From Hyphomicrobiales bacterium (GTDB taxonomy: Bacteria; Pseudomonadota; Alphaproteobacteria; JAPOUT01), in contig JAPOUT010000098.1 of NCBI GenBank assembly GCA_026708545.1, positions 1-51,606 of the forward strand: DNA of 51,606 nt. The letters run 5' to 3'. How positions within the stretch are numbered: position 1 is the first letter of the stretch; each line of letters starts with the position of its first letter. The notes under the pieces are model-generated. The model saw only the letters and a list, made by a program, of their open reading frames with translations. It was not told the origin of the DNA and made no database searches. Positions 12,561 through 50,981 of this stretch are shown one piece after another. The translations under genes were made by a program, and so were the position numbers.

Positions 12561-12565
12561 GTCTT

Positions 12566-13088: not shown

Positions 13089-13215
13089 TCCATCGGAATC
13101 CCTTGGGTCCGATTCCGCATTTCACGCTTGGAAGCACCAGACGCCAACGACAAAAAAAGAGACGACAAACAAAAAAGCAATACACGAATCTGCTGGTAGC
13201 ACCAAAAGTAACTTG
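13089..13215 (-). pseudogene. Decayed fragment resembling the C-terminus of the nearby MFS transporter
   Basis: In one minus frame this stretch reads FLFVVSFFVVGVWCFQA before a stop at 13122-13124. The C-terminus of the MFS gene at 8.9-10.1 kb reads FLFIVSFLVIAIWRFQA. Eleven of 17 residues match, and the bases match in third positions too. The following bases also echo the MFS tail (a Pro, Asp-Ser pattern). No complete gene is present; the surrounding 12953-13311 contains no other believable ORF. Confidence 0.42.
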
Positions 13216-13311
13216 GGATTGGAATCGAAGGCAACTTAATGATACAGTCCGAATCTGGCCACCGAGAAGGCTAGTAAGATGCTGGGGATTGGGCATGTAG
13301 GGAGACATATC

Positions 13312-25936: not shown

Positions 25937-25937
25937 A
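25887..25937 (+). CDS. 16-residue mini-cistron coupled to the repeat protein
   Basis: ATG ATG TTG ... GTG TAA encodes MMLRPRNPGLSKRDRV. A good Shine-Dalgarno (AGGAAAGGAAG) lies just upstream. Its stop codon overlaps the ATG of the next gene as TAATG, so ribosomes ending here can restart on the repeat protein, whose own ribosome binding site is weak. It may serve only for translational coupling; the peptide itself is not recognised. Confidence 0.5.
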   Translation: MMLRPRNPGLSKRDRV

Positions 25938-26635
25938 TGCCCAGAAAAAGACGGTCTTGCATCATTGACGGAGTTCGTTATGAATCCGAGTATTCGGCGG
26001 CTAAGGCTCTGGGCATAGGTGTAATGCTATTGAAAAGGCGTCTTGGTTCTTCCAATTTCCCAAACTACATCTCAAAACATCGCAAAAAAGTCAAACGCAA
26101 AAAAATGATTGCATCAAAAATTTCTTGCACCATTAAGGGAGTTAAGTATGCTTCCGTTTCCGATGCTGCCAAGAAGACTGGAGTGAGTGCCTTTAAAATT
26201 TTCAGTCGGTTGAAATCTCTTGATTATCCCGATTATGTTTGCGCCGACATCGAGAAGGCACCAAAACCAACCAAACACAGATACATGGTTGATGGTAAGA
26301 AATACTCCACATTGCAAGAGATTGCCGATATGGAAAAGCTAACCAAGGAACGAATACGGCAAAAGATGAACAGCCCGTCCCATTCCGGATACCGGCGGCT
26401 TTCACCAAGCGGGTCGGTTGCCGACAATACTCCTTCCCCGAAGAAATATCGCAGAAAATCAATGGACAAGTCTTGCACCGTCGACGGGATTCGCTATGAA
26501 TCACAAGAGATCGCTGCCGGGGCTTTAGGACTGGGAGTCGGAACATTGCGATACCGTCTGCGGTCATCCAATTTTCCTACATATGTTTCAAAACACCACT
26601 CGAAAATCAAAGTCAGAAAGAAGCGAGAGATATAA
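25937..26635 (+). CDS. Basic protein with four NUMOD-like helix-turn-helix repeats
   Basis: 232 aa, rich in Lys and Arg. Four units of about 40 residues have the shape C-x-(I/V)-DG-(I/V)-(R/K)Y-x5-AA-x2-LG-x7-RL-x-S-x2-(F/Y)P-x-Y. They lie at 7-48, 63-103, 115-155 and 179-220; units 1 and 4 are the closest pair (SSNFPNYISKH and SSNFPTYVSKH), while unit 3 is divergent. The pattern recalls the nuclease-associated modular DNA-binding domain (NUMOD1 type) of homing endonucleases, but no nuclease domain is present. Likely a DNA-binding accessory protein of mobile origin; the function is unknown. The linkers are highly basic. Confidence 0.7.
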   Translation: MPRKRRSCIIDGVRYESEYSAAKALGIGVMLLKRRLGSSNFPNYISKHRKKVKRKKMIASKISCTIKGVKYASVSDAAKKTGVSAFKIFSRLKSLDYPDYVCADIEKAPKPTKHRYMVDGKKYSTLQEIADMEKLTKERIRQKMNSPSHSGYRRLSPSGSVADNTPSPKKYRRKSMDKSCTVDGIRYESQEIAAGALGLGVGTLRYRLRSSNFPTYVSKHHSKIKVRKKREI

Positions 26636-35088: not shown

Positions 35089-36081
35089 ATGTCGAAACGA
35101 TTTGCAATTTTGGGAGCCGGGCGTATCGGGCAGGTCCATGCCCGTGCCGTCAGCAACAATGAAAACGCGGAACTTGCGGCAATTTTCGACCCCGCCGATG
35201 CGGCGGCGGAATCAATTGTCGAGCGCTACGGTGCCGCGCGGATGGACATCGAAGAAATTGCCGCCGACGCCGGCATAGATGCCGTGCTTCTTTGCACGCC
35301 GACGGACCGCCATGCCGAGCAGATAGAATTTTTCGCCCGCGCGGGCAAGGCCGTTTTCTGTGAAAAGCCGATTGACCTTTCATCCTCGCGCGCCCGTGAA
35401 TGTCTTGACACGGTTGAAAAAACAAAGGCAACGTTGATGGTCGGATTCAATCGCCGTTATGACCCGCACTTCATGGCGGTCAAGGCGCAAATTGACAACG
35501 GCTCCATCGGCAATCCCGAAACGGGAGTGATCATTTCGCGTGATCCGGCATTGCCTCCGGCGGAGTACATTAAACGCTCCGGCGGCATTTTCAAGGATAT
35601 GATGATTCATGATTTCGATATGGCGGTTTATCTCATGGGATCGGTGCCCGAGACCGTGTCCGCTACGGGTTCGGTGCTTACCGATCCGGAAGTCGCCGGC
35701 CTGGGAGATTACGACACCGCCTGCGCCGTCCTGCGCTGGACGGACGGCAGGCAGATGATGATCTCGAATTCCCGCCGCGCCGTTTACGGTTATGACCAGA
35801 GGATTGAAGTGCACGGGTCGCAAGGCATGGTCGCGGCGGAAAACCAGCGCCCGGTCGGCATTGAACTGGCAACGGAGAAAGGATACACCCGTCCGCCGCT
35901 GCATGACTTTTTCATGACCCGCTATACCGAGGCCTACGCCAATGAAATCAACGCCTTCATTGAGGCGATCAACGGCGGGGCCGTGGAAATCCCGACGGGG
36001 AAGGACGGCCTCAATTCATTGCTGATGGCGGAAGCGGCGCTGGCGTCGCTGGAAACGGGAACGGTCGTAAAAATAGCCTAA
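35089..36081 (+). CDS. iolG: Inositol 2-dehydrogenase (Gfo/Idh/MocA family)
   Basis: NAD-dependent oxidation of myo-inositol to scyllo-inosose, the entry step of inositol catabolism; 330 aa from ATG 35089. The Rossmann motif ILGAGRIGQVHA is at about 7-18, and the EKP motif in FCEKPIDLS (about 93-101) holds the catalytic Lys. The GGIFKDMMIHDFDM stretch has the catalytic Asp/His pair. An upstream start at 35014 adds unconserved residues. It faces the second Gfo/Idh/MocA gene tail to tail with overlapping stop codons (CTAA). Confidence 0.9.
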   Translation: MSKRFAILGAGRIGQVHARAVSNNENAELAAIFDPADAAAESIVERYGAARMDIEEIAADAGIDAVLLCTPTDRHAEQIEFFARAGKAVFCEKPIDLSSSRARECLDTVEKTKATLMVGFNRRYDPHFMAVKAQIDNGSIGNPETGVIISRDPALPPAEYIKRSGGIFKDMMIHDFDMAVYLMGSVPETVSATGSVLTDPEVAGLGDYDTACAVLRWTDGRQMMISNSRRAVYGYDQRIEVHGSQGMVAAENQRPVGIELATEKGYTRPPLHDFFMTRYTEAYANEINAFIEAINGGAVEIPTGKDGLNSLLMAEAALASLETGTVVKIA

Positions 36082-37202
36082 ACGCTTTCCCAATTTCCGC
36101 TGAGCGACGAGCGGTCAACCGCATCCAGCACCTTTTCGATGACGAGTCCGTCGGAAAAGTTCGGCCAGACGGGAGTGTCCTTTTCAATGGCGTGCAGCAA
36201 TTCGTGCAACTCGCAGACTTTAACATCCATGTAGCCAAGTCCGTGGCCGGCGTTCGGCAAAAAGGCCGAATAGGGTTCATGCATCGGGCCCGTCAGAATG
36301 GTCCTGAACCCGTTGGTCGCGGGATTGTCCTGTCGCGTGAAGAGGCGCAGTTCATTAAGCCTCTCCTGGTTGAAGCAAATCGTGCCTTCGGTGCCGTGCA
36401 CTTCCCAGCGCAGGCCGCATTTCAGCCCCCAGCTGACGCGGCTGGCGCCGATATGGCCGTGGACGCCGTTTTCAAATTTAACCAGCGCCGCAACCATGTC
36501 GTCGTTGTCAACCTTTTCCCTCTTGCCGGGTGCATCGGGAAGGCTGCGCTCGGGATGAACGATTGAAATATCGCCGATAACACGATTGATGGTCGAGCCC
36601 GTCACGAAATGGGCAATGCTGACGACATGACTGAGCACGTCGCCGATGGCACCGGTGCCCGATTTTTCCCGGGACATGCGCCACGACCATGGCCGCTCGC
36701 TGTCCGCTTCGTTATCGACGTCATACCGGCAGAAGAAAGCGGCAATGCGGCCGATTGCCCCGGATTCAATCAATTGCCGCGCATGCGTAACCGCCGGATT
36801 TTTTGTGTAGTTGTAACCGATGATTGTTTTGCCGGAACTGTCCAGGGCGGCTTTTGCCATGGCTTGAGAATCGGCAAGGCTGGCGGACATCGGTTTTTCG
36901 CACCAGACATGCTTGCCGGCCTTGAGCGCCGCAATGGCTATGTCCGCATGGGTGTCGTTCGGGGTGCAGACGGAAATTAATTCCACTTCGGGATCGGCGA
37001 CGACCTCCTGCCACTTGTCGGTATGGCGATTAAATCCCAAATCGGCGGCGCGCCGGGAGGCGCGTTGCGGATCCAGGTCGCAAACAATCTCAAGCCGCGG
37101 CCTCAATCCCGTTCCGAAAACCGAGGCGGACGCGCTGTAAGCTATTGAATGCGCCTTGCCCATGAACATCGTGCCGATGACGCCAACGCCGATTTCCTTC
37201 AT
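36078..37202 (-). CDS. Second Gfo/Idh/MocA-family oxidoreductase, probable inositol-isomer dehydrogenase
   Basis: 374 aa from ATG 37202 (MKEIGVGVIG). The NAD motif GVIGTMFMGKAHSIAYS is at 6-22, EKP lies in WCEKPMSASLADSQAM, and a GAIGDVLSHVVSIAHFV segment carries the active-site His. It is longer than IolG and belongs to a different branch, which suggests another substrate such as scyllo- or chiro-inositol, or a keto-inositol (inference). It diverges from the transporter operon over a region with a candidate RpiR operator. Confidence 0.85.
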   Translation of the reverse strand: MKEIGVGVIGTMFMGKAHSIAYSASASVFGTGLRPRLEIVCDLDPQRASRRAADLGFNRHTDKWQEVVADPEVELISVCTPNDTHADIAIAALKAGKHVWCEKPMSASLADSQAMAKAALDSSGKTIIGYNYTKNPAVTHARQLIESGAIGRIAAFFCRYDVDNEADSERPWSWRMSREKSGTGAIGDVLSHVVSIAHFVTGSTINRVIGDISIVHPERSLPDAPGKREKVDNDDMVAALVKFENGVHGHIGASRVSWGLKCGLRWEVHGTEGTICFNQERLNELRLFTRQDNPATNGFRTILTGPMHEPYSAFLPNAGHGLGYMDVKVCELHELLHAIEKDTPVWPNFSDGLVIEKVLDAVDRSSLSGNWESV

Positions 37203-37284
37203 AGCGTTTATCCTTCCAATATCCGTCGTGAAAGCAAAAAAGAACCCCCGCCAGTCGATTAGCACAATCGGCATCCTTAAGAAA

Positions 37285-37406: not shown

Positions 37407-38333
37407 ATGAAAAAACTCATGATGTTTGCTGTCGCTTTTGCGATGTCAATCGGCGTTGCTTACGCCTCCAACCACCAGGCCAATATTGTTGTTGTGACCC
37501 ACGGTTCCGACACCGATGCCTTCTGGGGGGTTGTCCGCAACGCGGTCAAGGCTGCCGCGGAAGACACGGGTGCTGATGTCCAGTACCGCAATCCGCCGAC
37601 GGGCGACCTCAACGAAATGGCTTCCCTGATCGAAGCCGCCATCGCCCAGAACCCCGACGGTCTGGTTGTTTCCATTCCCGACCCCGACATTCTTAGCGCC
37701 CCCATCAGGGCGGCGGTGGATGCGGGCATCCCTGTCATCTCGATGAACTCCGGTTCCGGTGTATCCAAGGAGCTCGGCGCCATCATGCATGTCGGCCAGC
37801 CCGAGTACGATGCCGGCAGAGGCGGCGGTGAAAGAACCAAAGGCCTCGGCGGCTCCAACGGTGTCTGCTTCAACCACGAACCGTTCAACACCGCCCTCCT
37901 CGACCGTTGCCAGGGATTTGCCGACGGCCTGGGCGAAGAGTTGAACATGGTCGAGGTGTCGCAGGACTTTGACGACATCAAGAACACCGTCATTGCCTAC
38001 ATGACTTCAAACCCGAACACCGGCGCCATCATGGCCGTCGGCCCCACGGGTTGCGACCCGACGATTGCCGCCCTTGAGGAAATGGGAAGGGCCGGCGACG
38101 TCGTCTTCGGCTGCTTCGACCTCGGTCCCGCAATCGTTGACGGCATCATCAACGGCACGGTGCAGTACGCGATCGACCAGCAGCAGTTCCTGCAGGGCTA
38201 CATCCCTGTTGTTGTTCTGCACCTGAACCACCGCAACGGCACGTTGCCGGGCAACTCAATTAACTCCGGCCCGGGTTTCGTCACCAAGGCCAATATTGAG
38301 CAGGTGAAGAAGCTGGCCGGCGTTGAGCGCTAA
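37407..38333 (+). CDS. Sugar ABC transporter substrate-binding protein (CUT2, probable inositol)
   Basis: 308 aa periplasmic binding protein. A signal peptide is at 1-20 (MKKLMMFAVAFAMSIGVAYA). The type I fold has IVVVTHGSDTDAFWGVVRNAV at the start, and aromatic and charged residues typical of CUT2 binding sites. It resembles FrcB/IbpA-type proteins. Its place at the head of an inositol catabolic operon suggests inositol as ligand, though this is inference. The permease and ATPase follow. Confidence 0.88.
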   Translation: MKKLMMFAVAFAMSIGVAYASNHQANIVVVTHGSDTDAFWGVVRNAVKAAAEDTGADVQYRNPPTGDLNEMASLIEAAIAQNPDGLVVSIPDPDILSAPIRAAVDAGIPVISMNSGSGVSKELGAIMHVGQPEYDAGRGGGERTKGLGGSNGVCFNHEPFNTALLDRCQGFADGLGEELNMVEVSQDFDDIKNTVIAYMTSNPNTGAIMAVGPTGCDPTIAALEEMGRAGDVVFGCFDLGPAIVDGIINGTVQYAIDQQQFLQGYIPVVVLHLNHRNGTLPGNSINSGPGFVTKANIEQVKKLAGVER

Positions 38334-38406
38334 TCCGGCAAACTGAATCGGTAGGCGGGCAGGACCATCCTGCCCGCCGCCCGGTGCGTTCTCCGGTAAA
38401 ATTACC

Positions 38407-39468
38407 ATGGCAAGCAACGACGAAAGACTGAGGCAGGTCAGCCTCGCCAGGGACATTGTCTCAAGGCCGGAACTTGGCTCCGTTTTCGGGCTGATTATTA
38501 TCGTCTTAACCTTCATGTCCCTGACCAGCATCAGCGGCACGTTTTCCGCTATGTGGACAAATCCGATCGGCATTCAGGCATGGGTTGAACTGGCGGCGTT
38601 TGTCGGCATCCTCGCCATCGGCGCGGCATTGCTGATGATTGTCGGCGAGTTCGATCTCAGCATGGGGGCGAATATCGCCCTTGCCGGACACTCCTTCGCC
38701 CTCCTCCTGATTTTCGGCGTTCCCGTCGTTCCGGCGATTTTCATCACTTTCTGCGAACTGGCCCTGCTCGGCTTGATCATAGGAACGATTGTTGTCAGAA
38801 CCGGCCTGCCGAGTTTTATCGTCACGCTCGGTTTTTGGTTTGCCAGCCGCGGGCTTGCCGTTTTCCTGAGTCAAACGCTGGTCAACCAGTCGCGCCTTTC
38901 CGTTACGGAGCAACTGAAACCCCCGGCAGGCGGCGGCGAAGACCCGTCGCTCATTGATAATATTTTTGCTTTTGACCGGGCTTTCGGCCTGCCGTTTGAC
39001 GCCGAGGTGTATTACTTCGCCATCCTCGTCGTGATCATGGCGTTGATGCTGCACAAAACAAGATACGGCAACTGGATTTATGCGGCGGGGGGCGACCCGC
39101 AGGCGGCCCGCGCCGTCGGTGTGCCTGTCAACCGCGTCAAGATCAGCCTATTCATGCTTTCCGCCTGCCTGGCCTGTCTGCTCGGCATACTGACGGTGAT
39201 GACCTCCGGCGCGTCCGACCCGAAGGCCGGCGACTTCCGCGAACTCCACGCCATTGCCGCGGCGGTGATCGGCGGCTGCGCATTGACCGGCGGCTATGGT
39301 TCCGTGGTCGGGGCGGTGCTCGGCGCGTTCATCTTCGCCATTGCCAGCCGCGGAATTAATTTCGTGCCGTTCATTGACAACAACCTGTTCCGCGTCATGC
39401 TCGGGCTTCTCGTTCTTGGCGCGGCGCTGCTGAACCAGTTCCTGCGCAACCGCGTGTTGAAAACATGA
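38407..39468 (+). CDS. CUT2-type sugar ABC transporter permease
   Basis: 353 aa inner-membrane protein with about ten helices. Typical features are AAFVGILAIGAALLMIVGEFDLS near the N-terminus, and the coupling-helix segment AAGGDPQAARAVGVPVNRVK near 220-240. The dimer-forming permease would be paired with the ATPase whose ATG overlaps its stop (ATGA). It has an N-terminal cytoplasmic extension of about 30 residues. Substrate predicted as inositol from context. Confidence 0.9.
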   Translation: MASNDERLRQVSLARDIVSRPELGSVFGLIIIVLTFMSLTSISGTFSAMWTNPIGIQAWVELAAFVGILAIGAALLMIVGEFDLSMGANIALAGHSFALLLIFGVPVVPAIFITFCELALLGLIIGTIVVRTGLPSFIVTLGFWFASRGLAVFLSQTLVNQSRLSVTEQLKPPAGGGEDPSLIDNIFAFDRAFGLPFDAEVYYFAILVVIMALMLHKTRYGNWIYAAGGDPQAARAVGVPVNRVKISLFMLSACLACLLGILTVMTSGASDPKAGDFRELHAIAAAVIGGCALTGGYGSVVGAVLGAFIFAIASRGINFVPFIDNNLFRVMLGLLVLGAALLNQFLRNRVLKT

Positions 39469-40226
39469 CGCCGACAATCCAATTAAAAGGCGTTTCCAAG
39501 TTTTTCGGCAACATTATCGCCTTGAAGGATATTTCTTTTGAGGCTCGAAAGGGCCAGGTGACTGCGCTTCTGGGTGACAACGGAGCCGGCAAGTCGACCT
39601 TGATCAAATGCCTTTCCGGGGTGCATACCCCCGACGAAGGCGCCATTTTGATTGAGGGCGAGCCGGTGCGCTTCAGATCGCCCCGGGATGCCGCCGCCGC
39701 CGGGATTGGCACCGTTTATCAGGACCTCGCCCTGCAGCCGCTGATGAGCGTCTCGCGCAATTTTTTTCTCGGACGCGAGGTCAGCAAGGGCATGTTCCTC
39801 GACATGGACACGATGAACGAGGTCACCCGCACGGAAATGGGCAAACTCGGCATTGACGTTGCCGATCCCGAACAGCCGATCGGCACCATGTCGGGCGGCC
39901 AGCGGCAGACGCTTGCCATTGCAAGGGCGATTTATTTCGGCGCCAAAGTGCTGATTCTCGACGAGCCGACTTCCGCCCTGGGGCAGAAGCAGCAACTTGA
40001 AGTGCTTAGGACGGTGAACCAGGTGCGCGACCGCAGCGATATTGCGATCATCTTTATTACCCATAACGATTTGCATGCCAAACTGATTGGCGACCGTTTC
40101 ACTTTCCTCAATCGCGGACGTATCCTCGCCGACGGCGAGCGCACTGAAATTGATACGGACAATCTGCGCAACCTGATGGCGGGAGGAGTCGAACTAGCGG
40201 AACTTGAAACCGAGTTCAAGCAATAA
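39465..40226 (+). CDS. CUT2-type sugar ABC transporter ATPase (single domain)
   Basis: 253 aa with one complete nucleotide-binding domain: Walker A GDNGAGKST near 37-45, signature MSGGQRQTLAIARAI near 144, Walker B VLILDEPTSALG near 161, and the H-loop in IFITHNDLH. Many CUT2 ATPases are fused tandem domains of about 500 aa; here only one is present, as in FrcA, so a homodimer is expected. Its end overlaps the possible upstream starts of the RpiR regulator. Confidence 0.92.
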   Translation: MTPTIQLKGVSKFFGNIIALKDISFEARKGQVTALLGDNGAGKSTLIKCLSGVHTPDEGAILIEGEPVRFRSPRDAAAAGIGTVYQDLALQPLMSVSRNFFLGREVSKGMFLDMDTMNEVTRTEMGKLGIDVADPEQPIGTMSGGQRQTLAIARAIYFGAKVLILDEPTSALGQKQQLEVLRTVNQVRDRSDIAIIFITHNDLHAKLIGDRFTFLNRGRILADGERTEIDTDNLRNLMAGGVELAELETEFKQ

Positions 40227-40254
40227 AACGTTAGTGCGGCGGAACCATTCGGCG

Positions 40255-41097
40255 GTGAATGACAAAGAGCAATTAAGGCCTTCGAAAAGAAATTTGACCA
40301 ACTTCCTGGCCGAAGTGCGCGGCTCTTACGACAGCCTGCCGCGCAAACTCCGAAAGCTGGCCGCTTTCAGTTTTGACCACCCCGACAATATGGCGCTTGA
40401 TTCAATTACCGAACTGGCGCGGCGCATGGACTCCCATCCGTCGGCCCTGGTTCGTTACGCCCAGCATTTCGGCTTCAGCGGCTTTAGCGAATTACAAGGA
40501 CTTTACCGCGAGCATATCCGCAACAACCCGCTCGGTTACGGACTGCGGCCCGACAACAGCGACCACGCCGGCACGACGGACATGCTAAATGCCATCAACC
40601 GGTCGGCAACCCGGTCAACCATGAATCTCGAAGAGACGGTCGGCGGCAAGACCTTGACCGAAGCCATCGAGTTGATTGCCAAAGCACGAACAATCTGGCT
40701 CGTCGGTGCCGGCCGCACCATGGCGGTGCAGTCTTACTTCAACTACCTCTTCACCGGCCTCGGCATGGTCAATCATTCGGTCGGACAGAATCTCGACCAG
40801 ATCGATCGTTATGTCCGATTGATGGCAACCGACGATGTCGTCATTGCCACCAGCTTCCACCCCTACACCCAGGCCACCGTCAAGACGGTCGCCAAGGCAT
40901 GCAAGGAAGGCATCCCTTGCATCTGTCTTACCGATACCAATGTCGGCCCGGTTCACGGGGCGGTCAATTTGATTTACAGCGAGGATCAATTTTCCGGCTT
41001 CCGCTCGATTTCCGCGACCATGAACCTTGCGCTTTTTCTGGCCATTCAAGCAGGCAAACTGCGTCGTGAGAACACCCCTGCAAAAAGAAGGAAGTGA
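40255..41097 (+). CDS. iolR: RpiR/MurR-family regulator, probable inositol repressor
   Basis: 280 aa from GTG 40255; a longer frame starts at TTG 40204 inside the ATPase gene. The N-terminal HTH_6 domain (about 15-90) includes LTNFLAEVRGSYDSLPRK and DSITELARRMDSHPSALVRYAQHFGFSGFSEL (parts). The C-terminal SIS domain (about 120-260) would bind a sugar phosphate or keto-inositol, with IWLVGAGRTMAVQSYF as its first loop. RpiR-type IolR represses inositol genes in rhizobia. The candidate operator at 37285-37302 fits this type. Confidence 0.8.
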   Translation: MNDKEQLRPSKRNLTNFLAEVRGSYDSLPRKLRKLAAFSFDHPDNMALDSITELARRMDSHPSALVRYAQHFGFSGFSELQGLYREHIRNNPLGYGLRPDNSDHAGTTDMLNAINRSATRSTMNLEETVGGKTLTEAIELIAKARTIWLVGAGRTMAVQSYFNYLFTGLGMVNHSVGQNLDQIDRYVRLMATDDVVIATSFHPYTQATVKTVAKACKEGIPCICLTDTNVGPVHGAVNLIYSEDQFSGFRSISATMNLALFLAIQAGKLRRENTPAKRRK

Positions 41098-41103
41098 GTC
41101 GCC

Positions 41104-43011
41104 GTGTCTGCAAGTGATCCGCTTCTTGATGTTATCTGTATCGGCCGGTCTTCCGTTGATCTCTACGGCAAGCAGGTCGGCGGACGGCTGGAGGACATGT
41201 CGAGTTTCAACAAATACATCGGCGGCAGTCCCACCAATATCAGCATCGGCTGCGCCCGCCTGGGACTCAAGTCGGCCCTCGTTACGCGGGTGGGGAACGA
41301 AGCCATGGGCCGGTTCATATCCGAAACCCTTTCCCGCGAAGGCGTCGATACTTCTTTTGTCATCACCGACCCCGAGAGGCTGACGGCGCTCGTCCTGCTT
41401 GGCATCAGGAGTGAAAACCAGTTTCCGCTGATATTCTATCGTGAAAATTGCGCCGATATGGCGCTCTGCAAAGAAGACATGGACGCCGGTTTTATCGCCT
41501 CGGCCCGGGCGGTGCTTGTCACCGGCACGCATTTCAGCACGCGGCAGGTCGCCGAAGCGAGTTTCGAGGCGATAGCGCTCGCCAAAAAAGCAAAACGCAA
41601 GGTCGCGTTTGACATTGATTACCGGCCGAACCTGTGGGCGCTCGGCGGCCATGACGACGGTGAAAGCCGCTTTGCCGAAAGTGCCAGGGTGTCGTCGCAT
41701 CTGCGCGAGATTCTGCCGCATTGCGATTTGATTGTCGGCACCGAAGAAGAATGGAAAATCGCCGGCGGCAACACCGATACAATCTCGGCAATCAAATCGG
41801 CGCGGCAGGTTACCGACGCGGTGATTGTCTGCAAGCGCGGCGCACAGGGATGCATCGTCTTCGATGGTGACGTGACCGGATGGCAGGACGGCATTTCAAC
41901 ACCGGTGCGGGAGATTGAAGTGTTTAACGTTCTCGGCGCCGGTGACGGATTCATGTCGGGTTTTCTTTCCGGCTGGCTGCGCGGCGAGCCGCTGTCCGAA
42001 TGCGCCCGTTACGCCAACATATGCGGGGCGCTCGCCGTATCCCGCCACGGTTGTGCGCCCGCCTATCCGTCACAGCGTGAATTGCGCCACATGATCGAGA
42101 CCGGAAGCAGGCATTTCGCCCTGCGCAAGGATGCAAAGCTTGAGCAAATCCACCATGCCACCACCCGCCGCAAGCGGTACGACTCGCTTGCGGCCTTTGC
42201 ATTTGACCATCGCAAGCAGTTTCTCGAGATTGCCGAAAAACACGGACGCGACGCCGAAGCGGTCGGCCGCTTCAAGCAAATTGCCCTTGAAGCGGTTGCA
42301 TCCATGGAAGAAGGCAATCTTGGCATCCTTGTTGACGACAGTCTCGGGCGCGACGCCCTCCATGCCGCATCCGAGCATGATATCTGGATAGGCAGGCCGA
42401 TAGAACAGTCGGGAATTTTCCCCCTCGCATTGGAAGAGGGACCCGACCTTGGCAGCAGGCTGGCCGAATGGCCCGCCAATCATTGCGTCAAGGTGCTCGC
42501 CCCTCTCCGCCTTGACGACAGCGAGCAAATAATCCGGCATCACGAAGAGACGTTGATGCGGCTTGCCGACGCCTGCCGGAACACCGGCCACGAGTTCCTG
42601 CTTGAAATCATCAACGGCCGGCAGGACGGTAAACCCGCAGACCCGGAACAGATCCTCGCGCTTTTGGAACGGCTTTATGAAATTGGAATTTATCCGGATT
42701 GGTGGAAACTCGAACCCGTCAATGACGCCGCCTTCTGGCAAAAGGCGGGAACGATAACAAGGATGCACGACCCGGACATTCAGGGTATAATCGTCCTCGG
42801 CAAGGCGATGGCCAGCGAGCATCTTTACGATGTCTTCGAGGCGGCACGATCGGAAGAAACGGTGCGGGGTTTTGCTATTGGACGCACTATTTTCAATACG
42901 CCCGCGGAAGAATGGTGTGCGGGCGGAATTGACGACGGTGCAGCAAAACAAATGATGGCCGACAATTTCCGTGCGCTGATTGCCGCATGGCACCGGGCCG
43001 GAGGTACATGA
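41104..43011 (+). CDS. iolC: 5-dehydro-2-deoxygluconokinase fused to a DUF2090 aldolase-like domain (IolC)
   Basis: 635 aa. Residues about 5-320 form a PfkB kinase that phosphorylates 5-dehydro-2-deoxygluconate; it has the substrate motif YIGGSPTNISIGCARLG (near 40) and the catalytic NVLGAGDGFMSGF (near 280). Residues about 330-630 are the DUF2090 domain (FAFDHRKQFLEIAE, then LEIINGRQD and WWKLEP), a barrel related to sugar-phosphate aldolases. This fusion is common in alphaproteobacterial iol clusters. Start GTG 41104. It follows the regulator by six bases. Confidence 0.92.
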   Translation: MSASDPLLDVICIGRSSVDLYGKQVGGRLEDMSSFNKYIGGSPTNISIGCARLGLKSALVTRVGNEAMGRFISETLSREGVDTSFVITDPERLTALVLLGIRSENQFPLIFYRENCADMALCKEDMDAGFIASARAVLVTGTHFSTRQVAEASFEAIALAKKAKRKVAFDIDYRPNLWALGGHDDGESRFAESARVSSHLREILPHCDLIVGTEEEWKIAGGNTDTISAIKSARQVTDAVIVCKRGAQGCIVFDGDVTGWQDGISTPVREIEVFNVLGAGDGFMSGFLSGWLRGEPLSECARYANICGALAVSRHGCAPAYPSQRELRHMIETGSRHFALRKDAKLEQIHHATTRRKRYDSLAAFAFDHRKQFLEIAEKHGRDAEAVGRFKQIALEAVASMEEGNLGILVDDSLGRDALHAASEHDIWIGRPIEQSGIFPLALEEGPDLGSRLAEWPANHCVKVLAPLRLDDSEQIIRHHEETLMRLADACRNTGHEFLLEIINGRQDGKPADPEQILALLERLYEIGIYPDWWKLEPVNDAAFWQKAGTITRMHDPDIQGIIVLGKAMASEHLYDVFEAARSEETVRGFAIGRTIFNTPAEEWCAGGIDDGAAKQMMADNFRALIAAWHRAGGT

Positions 43012-43024
43012 AGGAGAAACGGAC

Positions 43025-44866
43025 GTGGCAACTCTTCGATTGACTATGGCGCAAGCGCTTGTCCGCTGGATGACGGCGCAGCGCATCGAACAATTTGACG
43101 GCGGTGCCGAACCCGCTTTCGCCGGTGTCTGGGCGATTTTCGGCCATGGCAACGTCGCGGGTCTCGGCGAAGCCCTCTATGGCGCGAAGGACGCCCTGCC
43201 GACCTTTCGTGGCCATAACGAACAAGGCATGACGCATAGCGCGATTGCCTATGCCAAACAGAAGCAGCGCCGCCGCATGATGGCGGTGACGACCTCAATC
43301 GGGCCGGGGGCGGCCAATCTTGTAACCGCCGCGGCGCTGGGCCATGTCAACCGCCTGCCCGTCTTGTTGCTGCCCGGAGATGTCTTCGCCAACCGTCGGC
43401 CCGACCCGGTCCTCCAGCAGGTGGAATCCTTTGCGGACGGACTTGTTTCCGTAAACGACTGCCTGCGACCCGTAAGCCGCTATTTTGACCGTATCGGCCG
43501 CCCCGAACAATTGCTCCAGGCGCTGCCCAAGGCAATGTCGGTATTGACCGATCCCGGCGAATGCGGACCGGTGACACTGGCGCTGTGCCAGGATGTGCAG
43601 GCGGAGGCATGGGATTTCCCCGCTTCCTTTTTTGATGAGCGCGTATGGCACATCCGCCGAATCGAACCGGATGCGGATGAACTTGCGCGCGCGGTCGAAA
43701 AACTTTCGGCGGCGAAGAGACCGTTAATCATCGCCGGGGGCGGCGTGCGTTATGCCGGAGCAAGCCGGGACCTTTCGGATTTCGCCGAGAAGACGGGCGT
43801 TCCCGTCGCCTTGACGCAAGCCGGGAAATCCGCGCTCGTCGATGGCGCCGAAATGAACGTCGGCTCGCTCGGCGTCACCGGCTCGTCCGCGGCAAACGAT
43901 CTTGCCCAAAAAGCCGATCTGGTGCTGGCGCTCGGAAGCCGCTTGCAGGATTTCACCACCGGGTCAAACGGACTCATCAAGGGACAGGTTGTCAGCATCA
44001 ATGTGCAGCCTCATGACCTCGCCAAGCACAATGCCACGCCGTTGATGGCCGATGCAAAAAAAGCGATACGCGCGATTGCCCAAGCCATGGGCGGCTACGC
44101 CACTGCCGACGCCTATCGGAAAGAAATCGCGGCCCTCAAGGCGGAATGGACGAAGGCGCGCGACGCTGTCACCAAAGCGCCCGCCGACACCAACACCCTG
44201 CCCTCGGACAGCCAGGTGATCGGCGCCGTCAACAGGGCGGCAACACCGGAGACAATTGCCATCGGCGCGGCGGGTTCAATGCCGGGCGAACTGCATAAAT
44301 TATGGCACGTCGATACGGTTGACGGCTATCACATGGAATACGGATTTTCCTGCATGGGTTACGAAGTGGCCGCCGGGATAGGCGTTGACATGGCGGCGCC
44401 GGAAAGGCCGAATGTCGTCTTTGCGGGAGACGGGTCCTATTTGATGCTTAATGCAGAATTGGCGACGGCGGTGATGATGGGAACGAATATGACATTAATC
44501 CTTACCGACAACCGCGGCTTTGGCTGCATCAATCGCTTGCAGGCGGCAACGGGCGGAGCGGCGTTTAACAATCTGTTTTCGGATTCGGTTCATGAAACCC
44601 TGCCGGAAATAGATTTCGTCGCCCATGCCGCCGCCATGGGAGCGCGGGCCGCCAAGGCGGAATCAATCGCGGAATTGGAACAAATGGCGGGCGAAGCTAT
44701 CAGGCGCAAAGGAGTTGATGTTATTGTTATCGACACCGACCCCGGCCCTTCGACCGAAGCGGGCGGAACATGGTGGGATGTTGCCGTGCCGGAAGTATCC
44801 GACCGGAAAGAAGTCACCGCCGCCTTTCAGAATTATTTGAAAGGCAAGGCGGGGCGGGACAGTTAG
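43025..44866 (+). CDS. iolD: 3D-(3,5/4)-trihydroxycyclohexane-1,2-dione hydrolase (IolD)
   Basis: Thiamine-diphosphate enzyme that opens the inositol ring to 5-deoxyglucuronate; 613 aa. GTG 43025 with AAGGAG eight or nine bases upstream is preferred over in-frame ATG 42980, which lies inside iolC. The catalytic Glu region is near 80 (GHNEQGMTHSAIAYAKQ). The ThDP motif GDGSYLMLNAELATAVMM ... TDNRGFGCIN is near 470-505. A central nucleotide-like domain lies between. It is preceded by iolC and followed by iolB with a good AGGAG. Confidence 0.95.
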   Translation: MATLRLTMAQALVRWMTAQRIEQFDGGAEPAFAGVWAIFGHGNVAGLGEALYGAKDALPTFRGHNEQGMTHSAIAYAKQKQRRRMMAVTTSIGPGAANLVTAAALGHVNRLPVLLLPGDVFANRRPDPVLQQVESFADGLVSVNDCLRPVSRYFDRIGRPEQLLQALPKAMSVLTDPGECGPVTLALCQDVQAEAWDFPASFFDERVWHIRRIEPDADELARAVEKLSAAKRPLIIAGGGVRYAGASRDLSDFAEKTGVPVALTQAGKSALVDGAEMNVGSLGVTGSSAANDLAQKADLVLALGSRLQDFTTGSNGLIKGQVVSINVQPHDLAKHNATPLMADAKKAIRAIAQAMGGYATADAYRKEIAALKAEWTKARDAVTKAPADTNTLPSDSQVIGAVNRAATPETIAIGAAGSMPGELHKLWHVDTVDGYHMEYGFSCMGYEVAAGIGVDMAAPERPNVVFAGDGSYLMLNAELATAVMMGTNMTLILTDNRGFGCINRLQAATGGAAFNNLFSDSVHETLPEIDFVAHAAAMGARAAKAESIAELEQMAGEAIRRKGVDVIVIDTDPGPSTEAGGTWWDVAVPEVSDRKEVTAAFQNYLKGKAGRDS

Positions 44867-44893
44867 AGAATAAACAATACAGGAGTTAAGAAC

Positions 44894-45694
44894 ATGACCG
44901 ATCTTTTAGTCAAACCTGCGAAAAACGGCAACGGCGTTGTTCATGACATAACGCCGCAGTCGGCGAAATGGTCTTATGTCGGCTTCGGCGTCCACGACGT
45001 TAAATCCGGCGAAACCCTCCGTGTTGACGGCACGGATGATGAAGTCTGCCTCGTCCTGCTTTCGGGAGACGCGCGGATTACAGCGAGCGATCTCGACACA
45101 GGCATGCTAAAAGGGCGGCGTAGCGTTTTCGATAAAATTCAACCCCATGCCGTCTATGTGCCGATGAAAACGGGCTGGCAGGTTGAAGCGGGAAGCGATG
45201 TTGAACTCGCAATATCCCGCGCCCCGGGAATTGACGGCAAGCATCCGCCGAGACTTATCGATCCGGAAAAAATGTCTCTTGAAACGAGAGGCGAAGGCAC
45301 CAATACCCGTTATGTGCGCAACATCCTGCCCGAAAGCGAGCCGGCCGACAGCCTCTTGGTGGTCGAAGTGATAACTCCCGCAGGCAACTGGTCGTCTTAC
45401 CCGCCGCACAAGCACGACACGGACGATCTGCCTGGAGAATCCTATCTTGAGGAAACCTATTACCACCGCATCAATCCCGGACAGGGATACGTCCTGCATC
45501 GTGTCTACGATGACAGCCGGGATCTGGATGAAACGATGGCGGCGGAAGATCGCTCGGTTGTGCTGGTGCCGCGCGGCTATCATCCGGTGGGCGTGCCGCA
45601 TGGTTATGAAAGCTATTATCTTAATACCATGGCCGGGCCGAAGCGCATCTGGCGGTTCAAGAACGATCCAAACCATGAATGGATGCTCGGCTAG
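44894..45694 (+). CDS. iolB: 5-deoxyglucuronate isomerase (IolB), first copy
   Basis: Isomerises 5-deoxyglucuronate to 5-dehydro-2-deoxygluconate; 266 aa bicupin. The metal-binding cluster is visible in the second cupin: SSYPPHKHDTDDLPGESYLEE near 173-193 and RGYHPVGVPHGYESYYL near 232. AGGAG lies before the ATG. This copy looks like the standard IolB; a second, more divergent IolB is at 47.6 kb. Confidence 0.94.
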   Translation: MTDLLVKPAKNGNGVVHDITPQSAKWSYVGFGVHDVKSGETLRVDGTDDEVCLVLLSGDARITASDLDTGMLKGRRSVFDKIQPHAVYVPMKTGWQVEAGSDVELAISRAPGIDGKHPPRLIDPEKMSLETRGEGTNTRYVRNILPESEPADSLLVVEVITPAGNWSSYPPHKHDTDDLPGESYLEETYYHRINPGQGYVLHRVYDDSRDLDETMAAEDRSVVLVPRGYHPVGVPHGYESYYLNTMAGPKRIWRFKNDPNHEWMLG

Positions 45695-45727
45695 AAGCGC
45701 TCTTTTGCAGAACAAAGGACCTGTTTC

Positions 45728-46624
45728 ATGAAGCTTCGCCTCGGCATGTCGCCGATTTCCTGGTCGAACGACGACCTTCCGCAGCTTGGCGGGGATACGC
45801 CGCTTGAGGTTTGCCTGCGGGAAACCCGTGAAGCCGGGTTTGTCGGCACCGAAACCGGAGGGAAATTTCCCAAACAGGCAGACGCCCTCGCATCGGTCCT
45901 TGCCGCGCATGATTTGGCGCTTGTTTCGGGCTGGTACAGCGGCACGCTGATCAACAACGACCTGGAATCCGAAAAGCGGAGAATCGCCGAACAACTGGCG
46001 TTGTTCAAGGAAGTCGGCGCATCGGTGATCGTCTACGGTGAGACTTTCAACACCGTGCAAAACCGCCGGGAAAAGCCGTTTTCCTCGAGGCCGAAACTGG
46101 CGGATTTTGATGTCGCCGCCTATGGCAGGCGGCTGACCGTGCTGGCCGAACATTGCGCCGAAGCCGGCATGCCGTTGACCTTCCATCACCATATGGGAAC
46201 AGCCGTCGAAACCGAACAAGAACTTGACGCGCTTATGAATGCCACGGGGGAAGCGGTCGGGCTGTTGCTCGATACCGGGCATCTGGTTTTTGCCGGAGGC
46301 GACAACGCCGCCGTCATCGCCAAGCACGGCAAGCGCATCAATCATTTTCATGCCAAAGACGTTCGTGCGGACATTCTCGCCGATGTCGATCGCCAAATGG
46401 ATTCCTTTCTCGATTGCGTTCTGCGCGGGGTTTTCACCGTCCCCGGCGACGGCATGATTGATTACGGCGCAATTATGAAACAGCTTTTTGATTGCGGTTA
46501 TGAAGGATGGTTAATCGTCGAAGCCGAGCAGGACCCGGCCAAGGCAAACCCGCTCGAATATGCGAAGATGGGTTATGCCGCGCTGAATGATGCATTGCAT
46601 GCGGCCGGATACAAGCTCGCCTGA
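45728..46624 (+). CDS. iolE: Inosose dehydratase (IolE)
   Basis: Dehydrates scyllo-inosose to 3D-trihydroxycyclohexane-1,2-dione; 298 aa xylose-isomerase-like TIM barrel. The N-terminus LGMSPISWSNDDLPQLGGDTP is typical of IolE. Metal ligands are in TFHHHMGTAVET (about 155), LLLDTGHLVFAGGD (about 180) and NHFHAKDVR (about 205). The TGA overlaps the next ATG as ATGA. Confidence 0.95.
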   Translation: MKLRLGMSPISWSNDDLPQLGGDTPLEVCLRETREAGFVGTETGGKFPKQADALASVLAAHDLALVSGWYSGTLINNDLESEKRRIAEQLALFKEVGASVIVYGETFNTVQNRREKPFSSRPKLADFDVAAYGRRLTVLAEHCAEAGMPLTFHHHMGTAVETEQELDALMNATGEAVGLLLDTGHLVFAGGDNAAVIAKHGKRINHFHAKDVRADILADVDRQMDSFLDCVLRGVFTVPGDGMIDYGAIMKQLFDCGYEGWLIVEAEQDPAKANPLEYAKMGYAALNDALHAAGYKLA

Positions 46625-47580
46625 TGAATGCAGAGCGTCTCATCGCCGGCAAAAGGGTGCTTGTGGTGGGTCGCGCCGGCATGGACCTCTATCCGGCTCC
46701 CGACGGCACGCGCATCGAAGCGGCAACGAATTTTGTCAGCGATGTCGGAGGGTCCGCCGGCAATATCGCCGTCGCACTGGCCAGGCAAGGATGCCCCGCA
46801 GGACTAATGACGGCTTTTTCGGATGATGCGGTAGGACGCTTTGTCCTTGCGCAACTCAACAATTACGGCGTTGATACGCGATACTGCAAGACGACAAAAG
46901 GGCTTGAGCGCACTTCGCTGGCCCTTGCCGAAACCGTTGACACCGCGCCATCGGTGGTAATCTACCGAAACAATGCCGCGGACCTCGCCATCACTGAAAC
47001 TGATGCCGATGCCGTTGAACTTTCCGGTATCGGCGCGGTGATTGTGACAGGCACATCCCTCTCAAGCGACCCGTCGCGCTCGGCGGTGCAACGCCTCATT
47101 CGCAGGGCGAAACAGGCAGAGGTGACGGTGATTCTCGATATTGATTACCGCGCCCAGGCTTGGGCCGATGCGGCAAAGGCGAGGTCCGTCACCGCGGCAA
47201 CAGCCGCTCTTGCGGATGTTGTGGTCGGCAATAACGAGGAATTTGACTTCATTGCCGATGGTGAAGGCAGAAAGCACGCCGTTTCCCTTGCCGAAGCCGG
47301 CGCCCTGGTCCTTTACAAGATGGGCGAAGCGGGATGTGATATTATTACCTCCGAAGGCAGGAAATCTGTCGGCGTTTTTGCCGTCACCGCGCTCAAGCCG
47401 TTTGGTGCCGGCGACGCCTTCTTGGGCGGTTTCGTTGCCGCGGTTGCGGAAGGTAAAGATATTTCCGATGCCGTCCGCCGCGGAGCCGCCGCCGCCGCCA
47501 TGGTGGTTTCAACGAGGGGGTGCGCTTCCGCTATGCCTGACAGCGCCGCCCTTGAAGCCTTCATGACACAACACAACTGA
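46624..47580 (+). CDS. Second PfkB-family kinase of the inositol operon
   Basis: 318 aa ribokinase-like enzyme. It has VLVVGRAGMDLYP at the start, SDVGGSAGNIAVALARQG for substrate binding (about 38-57), and the catalytic PFGAGDAFLGGFVAAVA near 258-275. It is related to the kinase half of IolC but is a separate, shorter protein without DUF2090. Translationally coupled to iolE and followed by a second isomerase and an aldolase. It may phosphorylate 5-dehydro-2-deoxygluconate or an isomer from another inositol (inference). Confidence 0.85.
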   Translation: MNAERLIAGKRVLVVGRAGMDLYPAPDGTRIEAATNFVSDVGGSAGNIAVALARQGCPAGLMTAFSDDAVGRFVLAQLNNYGVDTRYCKTTKGLERTSLALAETVDTAPSVVIYRNNAADLAITETDADAVELSGIGAVIVTGTSLSSDPSRSAVQRLIRRAKQAEVTVILDIDYRAQAWADAAKARSVTAATAALADVVVGNNEEFDFIADGEGRKHAVSLAEAGALVLYKMGEAGCDIITSEGRKSVGVFAVTALKPFGAGDAFLGGFVAAVAEGKDISDAVRRGAAAAAMVVSTRGCASAMPDSAALEAFMTQHN

Positions 47581-47598
47581 CGAACGGAGATTAAACCC

Positions 47599-48441
47599 AT
47601 GCATATTACCCCTTTTGATAATGACAACAAGGCAATCATAGATGCGGACAACACGCATGTGCCGCTGACGTACTTCAACATAGTGAAGTTGTCGAAGGGC
47701 AAGCGTTTCAGCTATCGCGTGTCCGGATACGAGACATGCATCGTTCCCGCTACGGGAAGCGTTAGCATCGTCACCGACGGGGAAGCTTTCGATTCCATCG
47801 GCAATCGCGGCAGCGACGTCTGGGATGGTGAACCGGAGGGATGCTACATTCCATCCGGCGCCGAGGCGGAAATGACCTGCACTTCCGATACGGCGGAAGT
47901 GTTCGTAGCCGGGGCAAAGTTTGACGAGACGCTGAAACCCTTCGCCGTTCGGCGCGATGAAATCGATCTCGTTCAATACGGGTCCGACGACACCAAAACC
48001 CATCGTAAAATCAAACACATTCTAGGCCAGAAACAGGCGGGCAAGGTCGGGCGCCTGCTTGTATCGGAACTGTTCACCGTCGGCGCGGGCGGATGGTCCG
48101 GCTTTCCGCCGCACAAGCACGACAGCGAGAGACTGCCTGACGAAACCCGGCATGACGAAGTCTATAATTTCCGCTTTAAGCCGGACCACGGGTTCGGCAT
48201 GCAGTTGCTCGAACCGTCCGACGGCGGCATCGGCGAAGCTTTCCACATTGTTGACGGATCGACTTTCGTGATTAATTCGGGCTACCATCCTTGCGTTGCC
48301 GCTCCGGGATATGAAATGTACTACTTCACCATCCTCGGCGGACTGGCCCAGCGTCCGCTGGTCCAGTATTTCCACCCCGCCTATGCCTGGCAGGTTGAAA
48401 CCATCCCCGGCATCAAGGACATGATTGCCAAGTTCAAATGA
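47599..48441 (+). CDS. Second IolB-like 5-deoxyglucuronate isomerase
   Basis: 280 aa bicupin. The ligand cluster GFPPHKHDSERLPDETRHDE near 173-192 and NSGYHPCVAAPGYEMYYF near 230 match those of IolB, but the sequence diverges clearly from the copy at 44.9 kb outside these motifs. GGAG is nine bases before the ATG. Its stop overlaps the aldolase ATG (ATGA). It probably isomerises a stereoisomer of 5-deoxyglucuronate or is a redundant IolB. Confidence 0.85.
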   Translation: MHITPFDNDNKAIIDADNTHVPLTYFNIVKLSKGKRFSYRVSGYETCIVPATGSVSIVTDGEAFDSIGNRGSDVWDGEPEGCYIPSGAEAEMTCTSDTAEVFVAGAKFDETLKPFAVRRDEIDLVQYGSDDTKTHRKIKHILGQKQAGKVGRLLVSELFTVGAGGWSGFPPHKHDSERLPDETRHDEVYNFRFKPDHGFGMQLLEPSDGGIGEAFHIVDGSTFVINSGYHPCVAAPGYEMYYFTILGGLAQRPLVQYFHPAYAWQVETIPGIKDMIAKFK

Positions 48442-49265
48442 GCCTGGCCTCTCTAGCTGACGTGCTGCGCCCGGCCGTGACCGAAGGCTATGCGGTCATG
48501 GGCGCGGTGGTGCTCGGATGGGAAGACGCGGAAACCTATGTCGAGGCCGCCGAAGAAACGGGAGCGGCGATCATTCTGCAAGCAGGGCCGAATTTCAGGC
48601 AGTCCGTTCCGGTAAATGTTTCCGGGACGATGTTCCGCACCCTCGGCGAAGCCGCCGCCGTTCCGGTGGTAGCGCATATTGACCATGCAAAAAGCATCGA
48701 AGAATGCCGGACAGGAATCGAAGCAGGCTTTACATCAGTGATGTATGACGGCTCCGCGCTGCCGCTTGAGGAAAATATCGCTACTACGGCGGAAGTGGTT
48801 TCGCTTTCCCGCCGCCACGGCGTCTCGGTTGAAGCCGAAATCGGCTTTGTCGGTTATGCCGAGGGCGCAAACTCCGAGCATACCGACCCGCAGGAAGCGA
48901 CCAAACTGGTTGCGGAAACCGGCGTTGACGCGCTTGCTGTTTCCGTGGGAAACACGCATCTTCAGCAATCGGATCTCGCCGAAATCAACCTGGAAAGACT
49001 GGCTGAAATTGAGGCGGTCACCGATTGCCCTCTCGTTCTGCATGGCGCATCCGGCATTCCGGCCGCTATGCGGCGGCATCTGGCACTCAAAACCCGCGTT
49101 TGCAAGTTCAACGTCGGAACGGAATTTCGTTACGCATTCGGCCAAACCCTGCGCCGGGTGCTGGCCGAAGACGCATCCGTTTTTGACCGCCGCGAGATTT
49201 TTAAGAAAACAATGCCGACGCTGAAAACGCTTGCCATCGAGGTAATGTCGTCCATCAGGCCGTAA
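48438..49265 (+). CDS. iolJ: Class II aldolase, IolJ-like (6-phospho-5-dehydro-2-deoxygluconate aldolase)
   Basis: 275 aa zinc-dependent fructose-bisphosphate aldolase family member, of the KbaY/GatY/IolJ branch. The catalytic/metal motif AHIDHAKSIEEC is near 78-89, EAEIGFVGYAEGA near 133-145 follows, and GASGIPAAMRRHLALKTRVCKFNVGTEF (in parts) closes the site. It would split the phosphorylated intermediate into DHAP and malonate semialdehyde. It is the last gene of the operon. The next gene converges. Confidence 0.88.
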   Translation: MSLASLADVLRPAVTEGYAVMGAVVLGWEDAETYVEAAEETGAAIILQAGPNFRQSVPVNVSGTMFRTLGEAAAVPVVAHIDHAKSIEECRTGIEAGFTSVMYDGSALPLEENIATTAEVVSLSRRHGVSVEAEIGFVGYAEGANSEHTDPQEATKLVAETGVDALAVSVGNTHLQQSDLAEINLERLAEIEAVTDCPLVLHGASGIPAAMRRHLALKTRVCKFNVGTEFRYAFGQTLRRVLAEDASVFDRREIFKKTMPTLKTLAIEVMSSIRP

Positions 49266-49337: not shown

Positions 49338-50519
49338 CTAACTTTGCCTGCGGCTTGCGAGGGTATCGAGAGCGGCGGTAAATTCCTCAACCGACAGGCC
49401 CTGCCCGAGGGCTTCTATCATGAATTGCGCCTGGGTTTTCGGTGCAAATCCGCCTATGGGCGGGTCCAGATCAAGATTGGTGGGAAAAGAATACCCTTCC
49501 GCACAGGCAAAGACGGCATTTGCCAATTCGGTCTCGCTCAAGGCGTCCTGTTCTTTCGCCTTGAGCAAAACCGGATAAAGCGCCAGGGAAATCCGGTGAC
49601 GATTAACCGTTTCCATGGACCTGCCGAAAGCCGAAGATATCTGCAGCAGGTTTGCTATGCGAAAAACATCGGTGGTGACATTTTTACCCGCCGCGTGCAT
49701 CACTGCCGGATTGAAAAAAATCAAATCGCCCTTTTCAAGAGCCAACTGGACAAAGTTACGCGCAAAGTAATTTTGAAATTCTTCCCGTCCGTAAGCGAGA
49801 TACCCTTCATGAAAATGCTGCGAAAAAGGCAATAACTGCGTCGGACCGCTTTCAATCGGCATATCGCAATGGGCCACCGCTCCCTGCAAGGTTAGATAGG
49901 CCGAGAGCGCGTGAACATGAGAGGGATACCGCGTCGCTTCTTCAACCGTCATGAAACCAAGGTGATAGTCCCGGTGCGGCGTTTGCGCCGCACCGCCCGG
50001 ATTAACGCGGTTCACCTGCGACGTAACCTGGTAACCGCGGCCAAGCCACGCTTCGGACGCAATATTGATCGAGTGGCATGCATAATAGGCGGCAAAATTT
50101 TCGGGATCATGGAGGCAATGTTTCTCCAGGGCATTCCAGACACGATCATTGGCGCCGGCTTCGGCAAAATGGTCGCCGCCGCCCGCGTCCTTTTCGCGTT
50201 CAATAAGGACCTCGAAAACCTCCGTTGCGCGGTCAACGATTGAAATGTCCTTCATGCCGCGCTTGACGGCGAAAATACCCGCACCATTCGCCAAAATCCG
50301 CGTCCATTCGTTCAGCACGTCCCGCCGCATCTCGGCATCGCCCGCCGCTTTCGAAATATAAGCACCTTCGTAAAACGGAATGTTTTTTTGTATATCTACC
50401 GCAAGGGGAACATCGGCGGCACGGGTGGAACGCTGCATAACCCGCTCGAAAATCTTGAAATCCCCGCTATCAGGGCCGAGCCAGCAATGCTGCTCCGAAA
50501 ACGGTCTTTGAATATTCAT
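49338..50519 (-). CDS. Phytanoyl-CoA dioxygenase (PhyH)-family protein
   Basis: 393 aa Fe(II)/2-oxoglutarate oxygenase-like protein. The HxD pair is in TPHRDYHLGF (near 182), the distal His in FFNPAVMHAAGKNVT and the 2-oxoglutarate Arg in VFRIANLLQIS soon after, so the facial triad is complete. The ATG at 50519 (MNIQRPFSEQ) has GGGAG upstream; a longer frame to 50633 is rejected. It converges on iolJ with a 72-base gap and is not clearly part of the iol operon. The substrate is unknown. Confidence 0.82.
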   Translation of the reverse strand: MNIQRPFSEQHCWLGPDSGDFKIFERVMQRSTRAADVPLAVDIQKNIPFYEGAYISKAAGDAEMRRDVLNEWTRILANGAGIFAVKRGMKDISIVDRATEVFEVLIEREKDAGGGDHFAEAGANDRVWNALEKHCLHDPENFAAYYACHSINIASEAWLGRGYQVTSQVNRVNPGGAAQTPHRDYHLGFMTVEEATRYPSHVHALSAYLTLQGAVAHCDMPIESGPTQLLPFSQHFHEGYLAYGREEFQNYFARNFVQLALEKGDLIFFNPAVMHAAGKNVTTDVFRIANLLQISSAFGRSMETVNRHRISLALYPVLLKAKEQDALSETELANAVFACAEGYSFPTNLDLDPPIGGFAPKTQAQFMIEALGQGLSVEEFTAALDTLASRRQS

Positions 50520-50981
50520 CAAAACACTCCCAAAAAAATTCCGAACGATTCGGGGAATTATACATCCCTGTGTGCAAACCCGGCGACAAACCCTTTCCGG
50601 CATCCGGATTCGAAACGAAAGGCCCGGCGGCAATCGGGAGGATTATGCCGTCCGAACCGGCTTCGGAACCGATTTTAACACAAATTCCGCCTGATTTCCG
50701 CAACAATTCCGTATCTTTCTCCCGTCGACTGCTTCCGGAGAGAACAAGCGACCACCTGTCTACCCCAAAGAACATCATCTCCAAAATCAGTCAAGACCCG
50801 ATAAAAGACCGCATCCACATAAAGCCAATACAAACGCTTCCTGATGGCGGATATGGCGCGTAATTTTCGGCAATTTCGGGGTATGAAAGCGATGAAATTA
50901 CAGGCTTATCTGGCACAAGGGAAAAAGGAAGCCCTCGCCAAGTTCAAGGGATTTAGACGGGCGGATTCTTGCGTTTGCCTA
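50520..50981. other. Gene-poor stretch with one short ORF
   Basis: 462 bases with no recognised gene. A plus-strand 36-aa ORF (50884-50994, starting MKAMKLQAYLAQGKKEAL) looks like the start of a Cro-like protein but ends early. It may be a gene remnant. The left part should contain the PhyH promoter. Confidence 0.35.

Follow-up and report, generated by a model that had tools for sequence, protein, structure and literature searches.

The order of reactions in the iol pathway of inositol breakdown is established, and both aldolase types as well as both kinase layouts that serve its late steps are known separately. In one layout, the kinase IolC is fused to a DUF2090 domain, for which Price et al. 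2022 (PMC9007349) had put forward an aldolase role that is also curated in NCBIfam (NF047869); in the other, a stand-alone IolC-type kinase accompanies a class II aldolase of the IolJ type. According to the passages of the same paper on Phaeobacter inhibens, fitness data identified its IolJ-like protein PGA1_c07220 as the myo-inositol aldolase, while nine other inositol users possess IolC-DUF2090 instead, the text implying that P. inhibens is not among them. Here, we analysed a contig of 51,606 nucleotides from a Hyphomicrobiales bacterium, an alphaproteobacterium of marine type (JAPOUT010000098.1, assembly GCA_026708545.1; hereafter, the window), in which both layouts, each with its own isomerase, lie within one iol operon. 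Drawing on the observed anatomy of this operon, its intact catalytic residues, the conservation and recurrence of its parts, its single trunk, and genomes with either set alone, we consider it reasonably probable that two isofunctional late sets operate on one IolG-IolE-IolD trunk. Probably, the locus represents a known pathway in unusual form, and not a new one.

The genes of the trunk and of both sets are arranged as follows (window coordinates, strand, profile matches):

35089..36081, +, iolG, inositol 2-dehydrogenase (TIGR04380, 398.5 vs cut-off 355; frame open from 35014, presumed start at 35089)
41104..43011, +, iolC, PfkB kinase fused to a DUF2090 aldolase domain, set 1 (NF047869, 700.7 vs cut-off 600)
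43025..44866, +, iolD, trihydroxycyclohexane-1,2-dione hydrolase (TIGR04377, 876.9 vs cut-off 715; putative GTG start at 43025, picked via a ribosome-binding site)
44894..45694, +, iolB1, canonical 5-deoxyglucuronate isomerase, set 1 (TIGR04378, 332.7 vs cut-off 205)
45728..46624, +, iolE, 2-keto-myo-inositol dehydratase (TIGR04379, 395.5 vs cut-off 290)
46624..47580, +, iolC2, stand-alone PfkB kinase of the IolC type, set 2 (TIGR04382, 285.4 vs cut-off 300)
47599..48441, +, iolB2, bicupin isomerase in a conserved subfamily of its own, set 2 (PF04962, 248 bits)
48438..49265, +, iolJ, class II (zinc) aldolase, set 2 (PF01116, 242 bits)

All open reading frames across 41104-49265 are uninterrupted. 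The iolE stop and the iolC2 start overlap in CTGATGAATG, iolC2 and iolB2 are separated by 18 bases, and iolB2 and iolJ overlap in AAATGAG; the two overlaps therefore indicate that both sets most likely constitute one transcription and translation unit. Thus, the two parallel sets of late steps that the earlier note had read from this segment, with isomerase, kinase, and aldolase each present twice in a single operon, are borne out by the intact frames and the profile identities, and their coordinates are right. Likewise, its suggestion that DUF2090 provides the aldolase of set 1 agrees with the above-cut-off match of iolC, which contains both a PfkB and a DUF2090 domain, to the model of a "bifunctional 5-dehydro-2-deoxygluconokinase/5-dehydro-2-deoxyphosphogluconate aldolase", and with the earlier published proposal.

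As predicted from the sequences, IolG, IolE, and IolD would form the shared trunk giving 5-deoxyglucuronate. In set 1, the canonical IolB would then act, followed by IolC-DUF2090, which would phosphorylate 2-deoxy-5-keto-gluconate and cleave the product through its class I-type aldolase domain; in set 2, IolB2, the stand-alone IolC2, and the class II IolJ would carry out the same three steps, so that both sets would end in dihydroxyacetone phosphate and malonate semialdehyde. A reason for keeping both may lie in dosage, or in different kinetics or a different substrate form. A match above cut-off to the methylmalonate/malonate-semialdehyde dehydrogenase family is also present in the genome, covering 328 of 477 positions at a contig start and possibly truncated.

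The catalytic residues examined in IolB2, IolJ, and DUF2090 are all present. DUF2090 (PF09863) spans iolC residues 326-631, and its LacD-like Lys/Glu pair (residues 463 and 501 of iolC, K136 and E174 of the domain) is invariant in six sequences and aligns with LacD-type aldolases, the phmmer match to which (E ~0.01) served the residue alignment only. IolB2 belongs to the KduI/IolB bicupin family, and its putative metal ligands (H172, H174, E187, and H230, assigned by inference) are common to IolB1. In IolJ, the catalytic Asp and the zinc ligands (D82, H83, E134, H174, and H202) are invariant among its relatives. IolC2 matches TIGR04382 best, narrowly missing the cut-off in the window, its triad homologues score 332 and 375, and its closest solved relative is a putative 5-dehydro-2-deoxygluconokinase (2qcv). 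IolJ belongs to the class II aldolase family PF01116, but reached no equivalog cut-off and matched no curated IolJ model. An AlphaFold2 model of IolB2 from a 10-row alignment (mean predicted local distance difference test score 60.6) was too poor for pocket mapping or fold search.

The earlier note had suggested that the second set may serve a different stereoisomer, or a deoxyuronate from elsewhere; the stereoisomer proposal fared poorly once the steps upstream were considered. The window genome (91 % complete) encodes one IolE and one IolD above cut-off (the runner-up to IolD scores ~187 bits) and two IolB proteins, and likewise, the complete, single-contig genome G195 from another family contains one IolE and one IolD above cut-off together with two IolB. 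In neither genome did set 2 have IolE- or IolD-type steps of its own above the curated cut-offs; therefore, nothing found there feeds a second branch. Furthermore, set 2 alone follows a canonical trunk in other genomes: G033 (complete, 1.41 Mb, one contig) combines IolE (401) and IolD (760) with iolC2-iolB2-iolJ and possesses neither IolB1 nor DUF2090, and in G298, IolB2 is the sole IolB behind canonical IolE and IolD. In Photobacterium sp. DA100, an operon on plasmid pDA100 likewise harbours IolE (422), IolD (865), and IolC (375), all above cut-off, along with IolB2 and an aldolase. This gammaproteobacterial plasmid has three IolB-family places, the IolB2 studied here lying in the otherwise canonical iol operon. 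That parts are so freely exchanged between genomes argues that both sets perform the same steps.

A search of bacterial genomes for IolB2 yielded at least 583 related stretches, 80 of which were kept as loci for counts. Across them, iolC2-iolB2-iolJ stays together as a fixed triad, as iolC2 adjoins iolB2 in 79 of the 80 loci and iolB2 adjoins iolJ in 78. Its usual setting is an alphaproteobacterial cluster (hereafter, type-2 cluster; named and annotated examples occur in Ruegeria sp. TM1040 and Rhizobium sp. WL3) comprising a LacI regulator, gfo-iolE2-gfo, and a divergent iolD2-iolC2-iolB2-iolJ, often with iolG, where IolE2 scores 171-185 bits versus the IolE cut-off of 290. Set 2 is part of an alternative inositol cluster found widely among alphaproteobacteria, whose triad is joined here to a canonical operon.

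How the two sets combine was counted across the family of Ruegeria halocynthiae (348 sampled genomes, the roseobacters below), with IolB1 called at E < 1e-85 for PF04962, IolB2 at E < 1e-80 to the window IolB2, and no account taken of kinship. IolB1 occurs with DUF2090 in 49 genomes, with both IolB2 and DUF2090 in 47, with IolB2 and without DUF2090 in 43, and alone in five; genomes lacking IolB1 comprise 42 with IolB2 and without DUF2090, two with IolB2 and DUF2090, and five with DUF2090 alone. Among genomes with IolB1, IolB2 is present in 43 of 48 without DUF2090 versus 47 of 96 with it (Fisher p = 1e-6), that is, IolB1 genomes without DUF2090 nearly always have IolB2, taken here as marker of the triad, as expected if IolC2 and IolJ replace the fused enzyme. 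One could also imagine that IolB2 is an auxiliary enzyme on the same trunk, acting, e.g., on 5-deoxyglucuronate as another anomer, hydrate, or lactone, or on a side product of IolD, with IolC2 and IolJ merely linked to it. This would fit the 43 roseobacters that combine IolB1 and IolB2 without the fused IolC-DUF2090, as well as the better conservation of IolB2, which in every comparison to the window reaches 65-78 % versus 42-59 % for IolC2 and IolJ. However, IolB2 is the sole IolB in 44 of the 348 genomes, where a working pathway would have to rely on it for isomerisation, and we deem such an auxiliary role quite unlikely.

Several observations weigh against two isofunctional sets. First, IolB2 does not reach the equivalog cut-off for IolB, scoring 161.0 on TIGR04378 (homologues 147-164), and IolB1 and IolB2 differ invariantly at many residues, several of them beside the presumed metal ligands; residues specific to the IolB2 subfamily include H185, N190, F191, T244, and Q251. 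Second, IolB2 forms one clade (0.98) with IolB3, a third IolB-like group ~43 % identical to IolB2 (L134:11947-12780 and L125:9984-10811) and annotated as "5-deoxy-glucuronate isomerase"; in Rhizobium leguminosarum, IolB3 neighbours an oligopeptide-type ABC (ATP-binding cassette) importer, a glycosyl hydrolase, and a mandelate racemase homologue in a non-inositol cluster, surroundings which make that annotation doubtful. Third, IolB1 and IolB2 occur together in 90 roseobacters versus 55 expected, a figure uncorrected for kinship and for inositol use as such; this excess, together with the 43 genomes without the fused enzyme, is not predicted by plain redundancy. Fourth, of the 42 roseobacters with IolB2 but neither IolB1 nor DUF2090, 37 have IolE2 as their sole IolE type, so that set 2 could have its usual home in the breakdown of another cyclitol. 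The fitness result for PGA1_c07220 counts in favour of isofunctional sets, though this gene may or may not belong to a type-2 cluster.

From such observations, set 2 might be construed as a separate branch, acting on a stereoisomeric or other deoxyuronate that is imported or derived from another cyclitol through gfo/IolE2-type enzymes encoded elsewhere. The distinct and highly conserved IolB2 subfamily with its own residues near the metal site, the retention of both isomerases in 90 of 348 genomes, and a usual home equipped with its own IolE2, a LacI regulator, and a pair of Gfo dehydrogenases would all suit such a branch. On the other hand, the single IolE and IolD in the window genome and in G195, IolB2 as sole IolB behind canonical IolE and IolD in G033 and G298, the canonical IolE-IolD-IolC surrounding IolB2 in Photobacterium, and the type-2 cluster itself, frequently furnished with a genuine IolG as well as an IolD above cut-off, speak against it, and we regard a separate branch as rather unlikely. 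In its most novel form, with IolB2-IolC2-IolJ completing a cyclitol pathway that has yet to be described and IolB2 acting on a different deoxyuronate, the grafted triad would place two stereochemical series on one transcript, which likewise seems rather unlikely to us.

The earlier note had also suggested mapping how often the doubled set recurs, and it does recur. G195 (locus L118) shows the same order, iolC-DUF2090, iolD, iolB1, iolE, iolC2, iolB2, iolJ, and IolB1, IolB2, and DUF2090 occur jointly in the 47 roseobacter genomes counted above. In G275 and G338, iolC-DUF2090 lies immediately upstream of iolC2-iolB2-iolJ, loci L119 and L126 display a different doubled arrangement, and further arrangements are found in L034 and in a deltaproteobacterial metagenome-assembled genome (L080). 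Both sets are also present, with RefSeq annotation, on plasmid NZ_CP018573 of Marivivens sp. JLT3646 (L135). That set 2 is a redundant, horizontally acquired block on its way to being lost appears very improbable. The only other sampled genome of the same genus (G001, 93 % complete) contains no IolB, IolE, or DUF2090, the inositol locus therefore being variable within the genus, as such a loss would have it; however, the window frames and catalytic residues are intact, the same doubled operon occurs in another family and a different doubled arrangement in L119/L126, and iolC2 and iolJ show no rate excess. Decay or relaxed selection on set 2 was rejected, with a rate ratio of (IolC2+IolJ) to IolB2 of 4.7 in the window versus a mean of 4.3; the high rate ranks of IolC2 and IolJ taken alone reflect fast lineages.

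The operon is flanked by the following genes:

36078..37274, -, Gfo/Idh/MocA dehydrogenase, ~40 % identical to one of the two type-2-cluster dehydrogenases
37407..40226, +, sugar ABC transporter of the ibpA-iatP-iatA type (Peripla_BP_4), probably an inositol importer
40204..41097, +, RpiR-family regulator at the operon head (MurR/RpiR-family matches; start codon uncertain)
49338..50633, -, PhyH-family dioxygenase (PF05721)

The importer genes of locus L016 are 85-89 % identical to those of the window and adjoin iolE-iolC2-iolB2-iolJ there, while iolC-DUF2090, iolD, and iolB1 lie on other contigs; a different, short PhyH-like protein (L016:7187-8014) is encoded between importer and iolE. A PhyH-family dioxygenase gene occurs in 14 of the 80 loci as a recurrent neighbour of the triad and of iolB1, the latter often directly adjoining, and lies near inositol genes in L063, L072, L073, L077, L119, L123, L124, and L129. 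The enzyme may act on a modified cyclitol, e.g., a methyl-inositol; the window protein had no close solved structure (best E 0.003), hence no substrate can be named. Farther away, 25937-26635 (+) encodes a protein carrying a pair of I-TevI-type DNA-binding repeats (PF20987), standing alone among housekeeping genes and possibly a mobile-element remnant. A cluster at 7405-13806 combines a Fic protein with two Peptidase_M78 (IrrE-like) proteins and an antitoxin-like protein of the SocA/Panacea type, which makes it look like a small island of toxin-antitoxin or regulatory genes.

If the two sets are isofunctional, natural operons would hold two chemistries, a class I-type fused and a class II free aldolase, side by side for the same steps, and IolB2 would represent a second, unnamed 5-deoxyglucuronate isomerase subfamily missed by the curated IolB model, such that pathway prediction could leave the IolB step unfilled for many roseobacters (the 44 with IolB2 and without IolB1). 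If they are not, common marine bacteria would hold a cyclitol pathway still undescribed. The earlier note knew of no description of the doubled layout, which stands in part: neither the exact joint operon nor the IolB2 subfamily was found described, literature searches returning no iolB2 and, for Phaeobacter and Ruegeria inositol genetics, only PMC9007349 as relevant; duplicated core genes had, however, been reported, with 548 species showing multiple matches to iol clusters, mainly as multiple core genes (PMC9430895), and the Marivivens plasmid with both sets is in RefSeq.

Compared with the fused IolC-DUF2090 pathway (PMC9007349; NF047869), the window resembles it in that IolC-DUF2090, IolD, IolB, and IolE all exceed their curated cut-offs, but its operon adds a second isomerase, kinase, and aldolase. 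With the IolJ-type pathway (Bacillus subtilis IolJ and P. inhibens PGA1_c07220, as cited in PMC9007349), it shares an inositol operon that encodes a stand-alone IolC kinase along with a class II aldolase, whereas in the window these coexist with DUF2090 and isomerisation falls to IolB2, which misses the equivalog cut-off for IolB. The type-2 cluster on the Ruegeria sp. TM1040 megaplasmid (L132; annotated iolD-iolC-isomerase-aldolase-iolG) contains iolC2-iolB2-iolJ in the same order, yet includes an IolE2, an IolD2, a pair of Gfo dehydrogenases, and a LacI regulator of its own, while the window triad uses the canonical trunk. The Marivivens sp. JLT3646 plasmid unites both late sets at one locus; in contrast to the window, they lie on opposite strands, with gfo-iolE2-gfo and LacI kept, and do not form a single operon.

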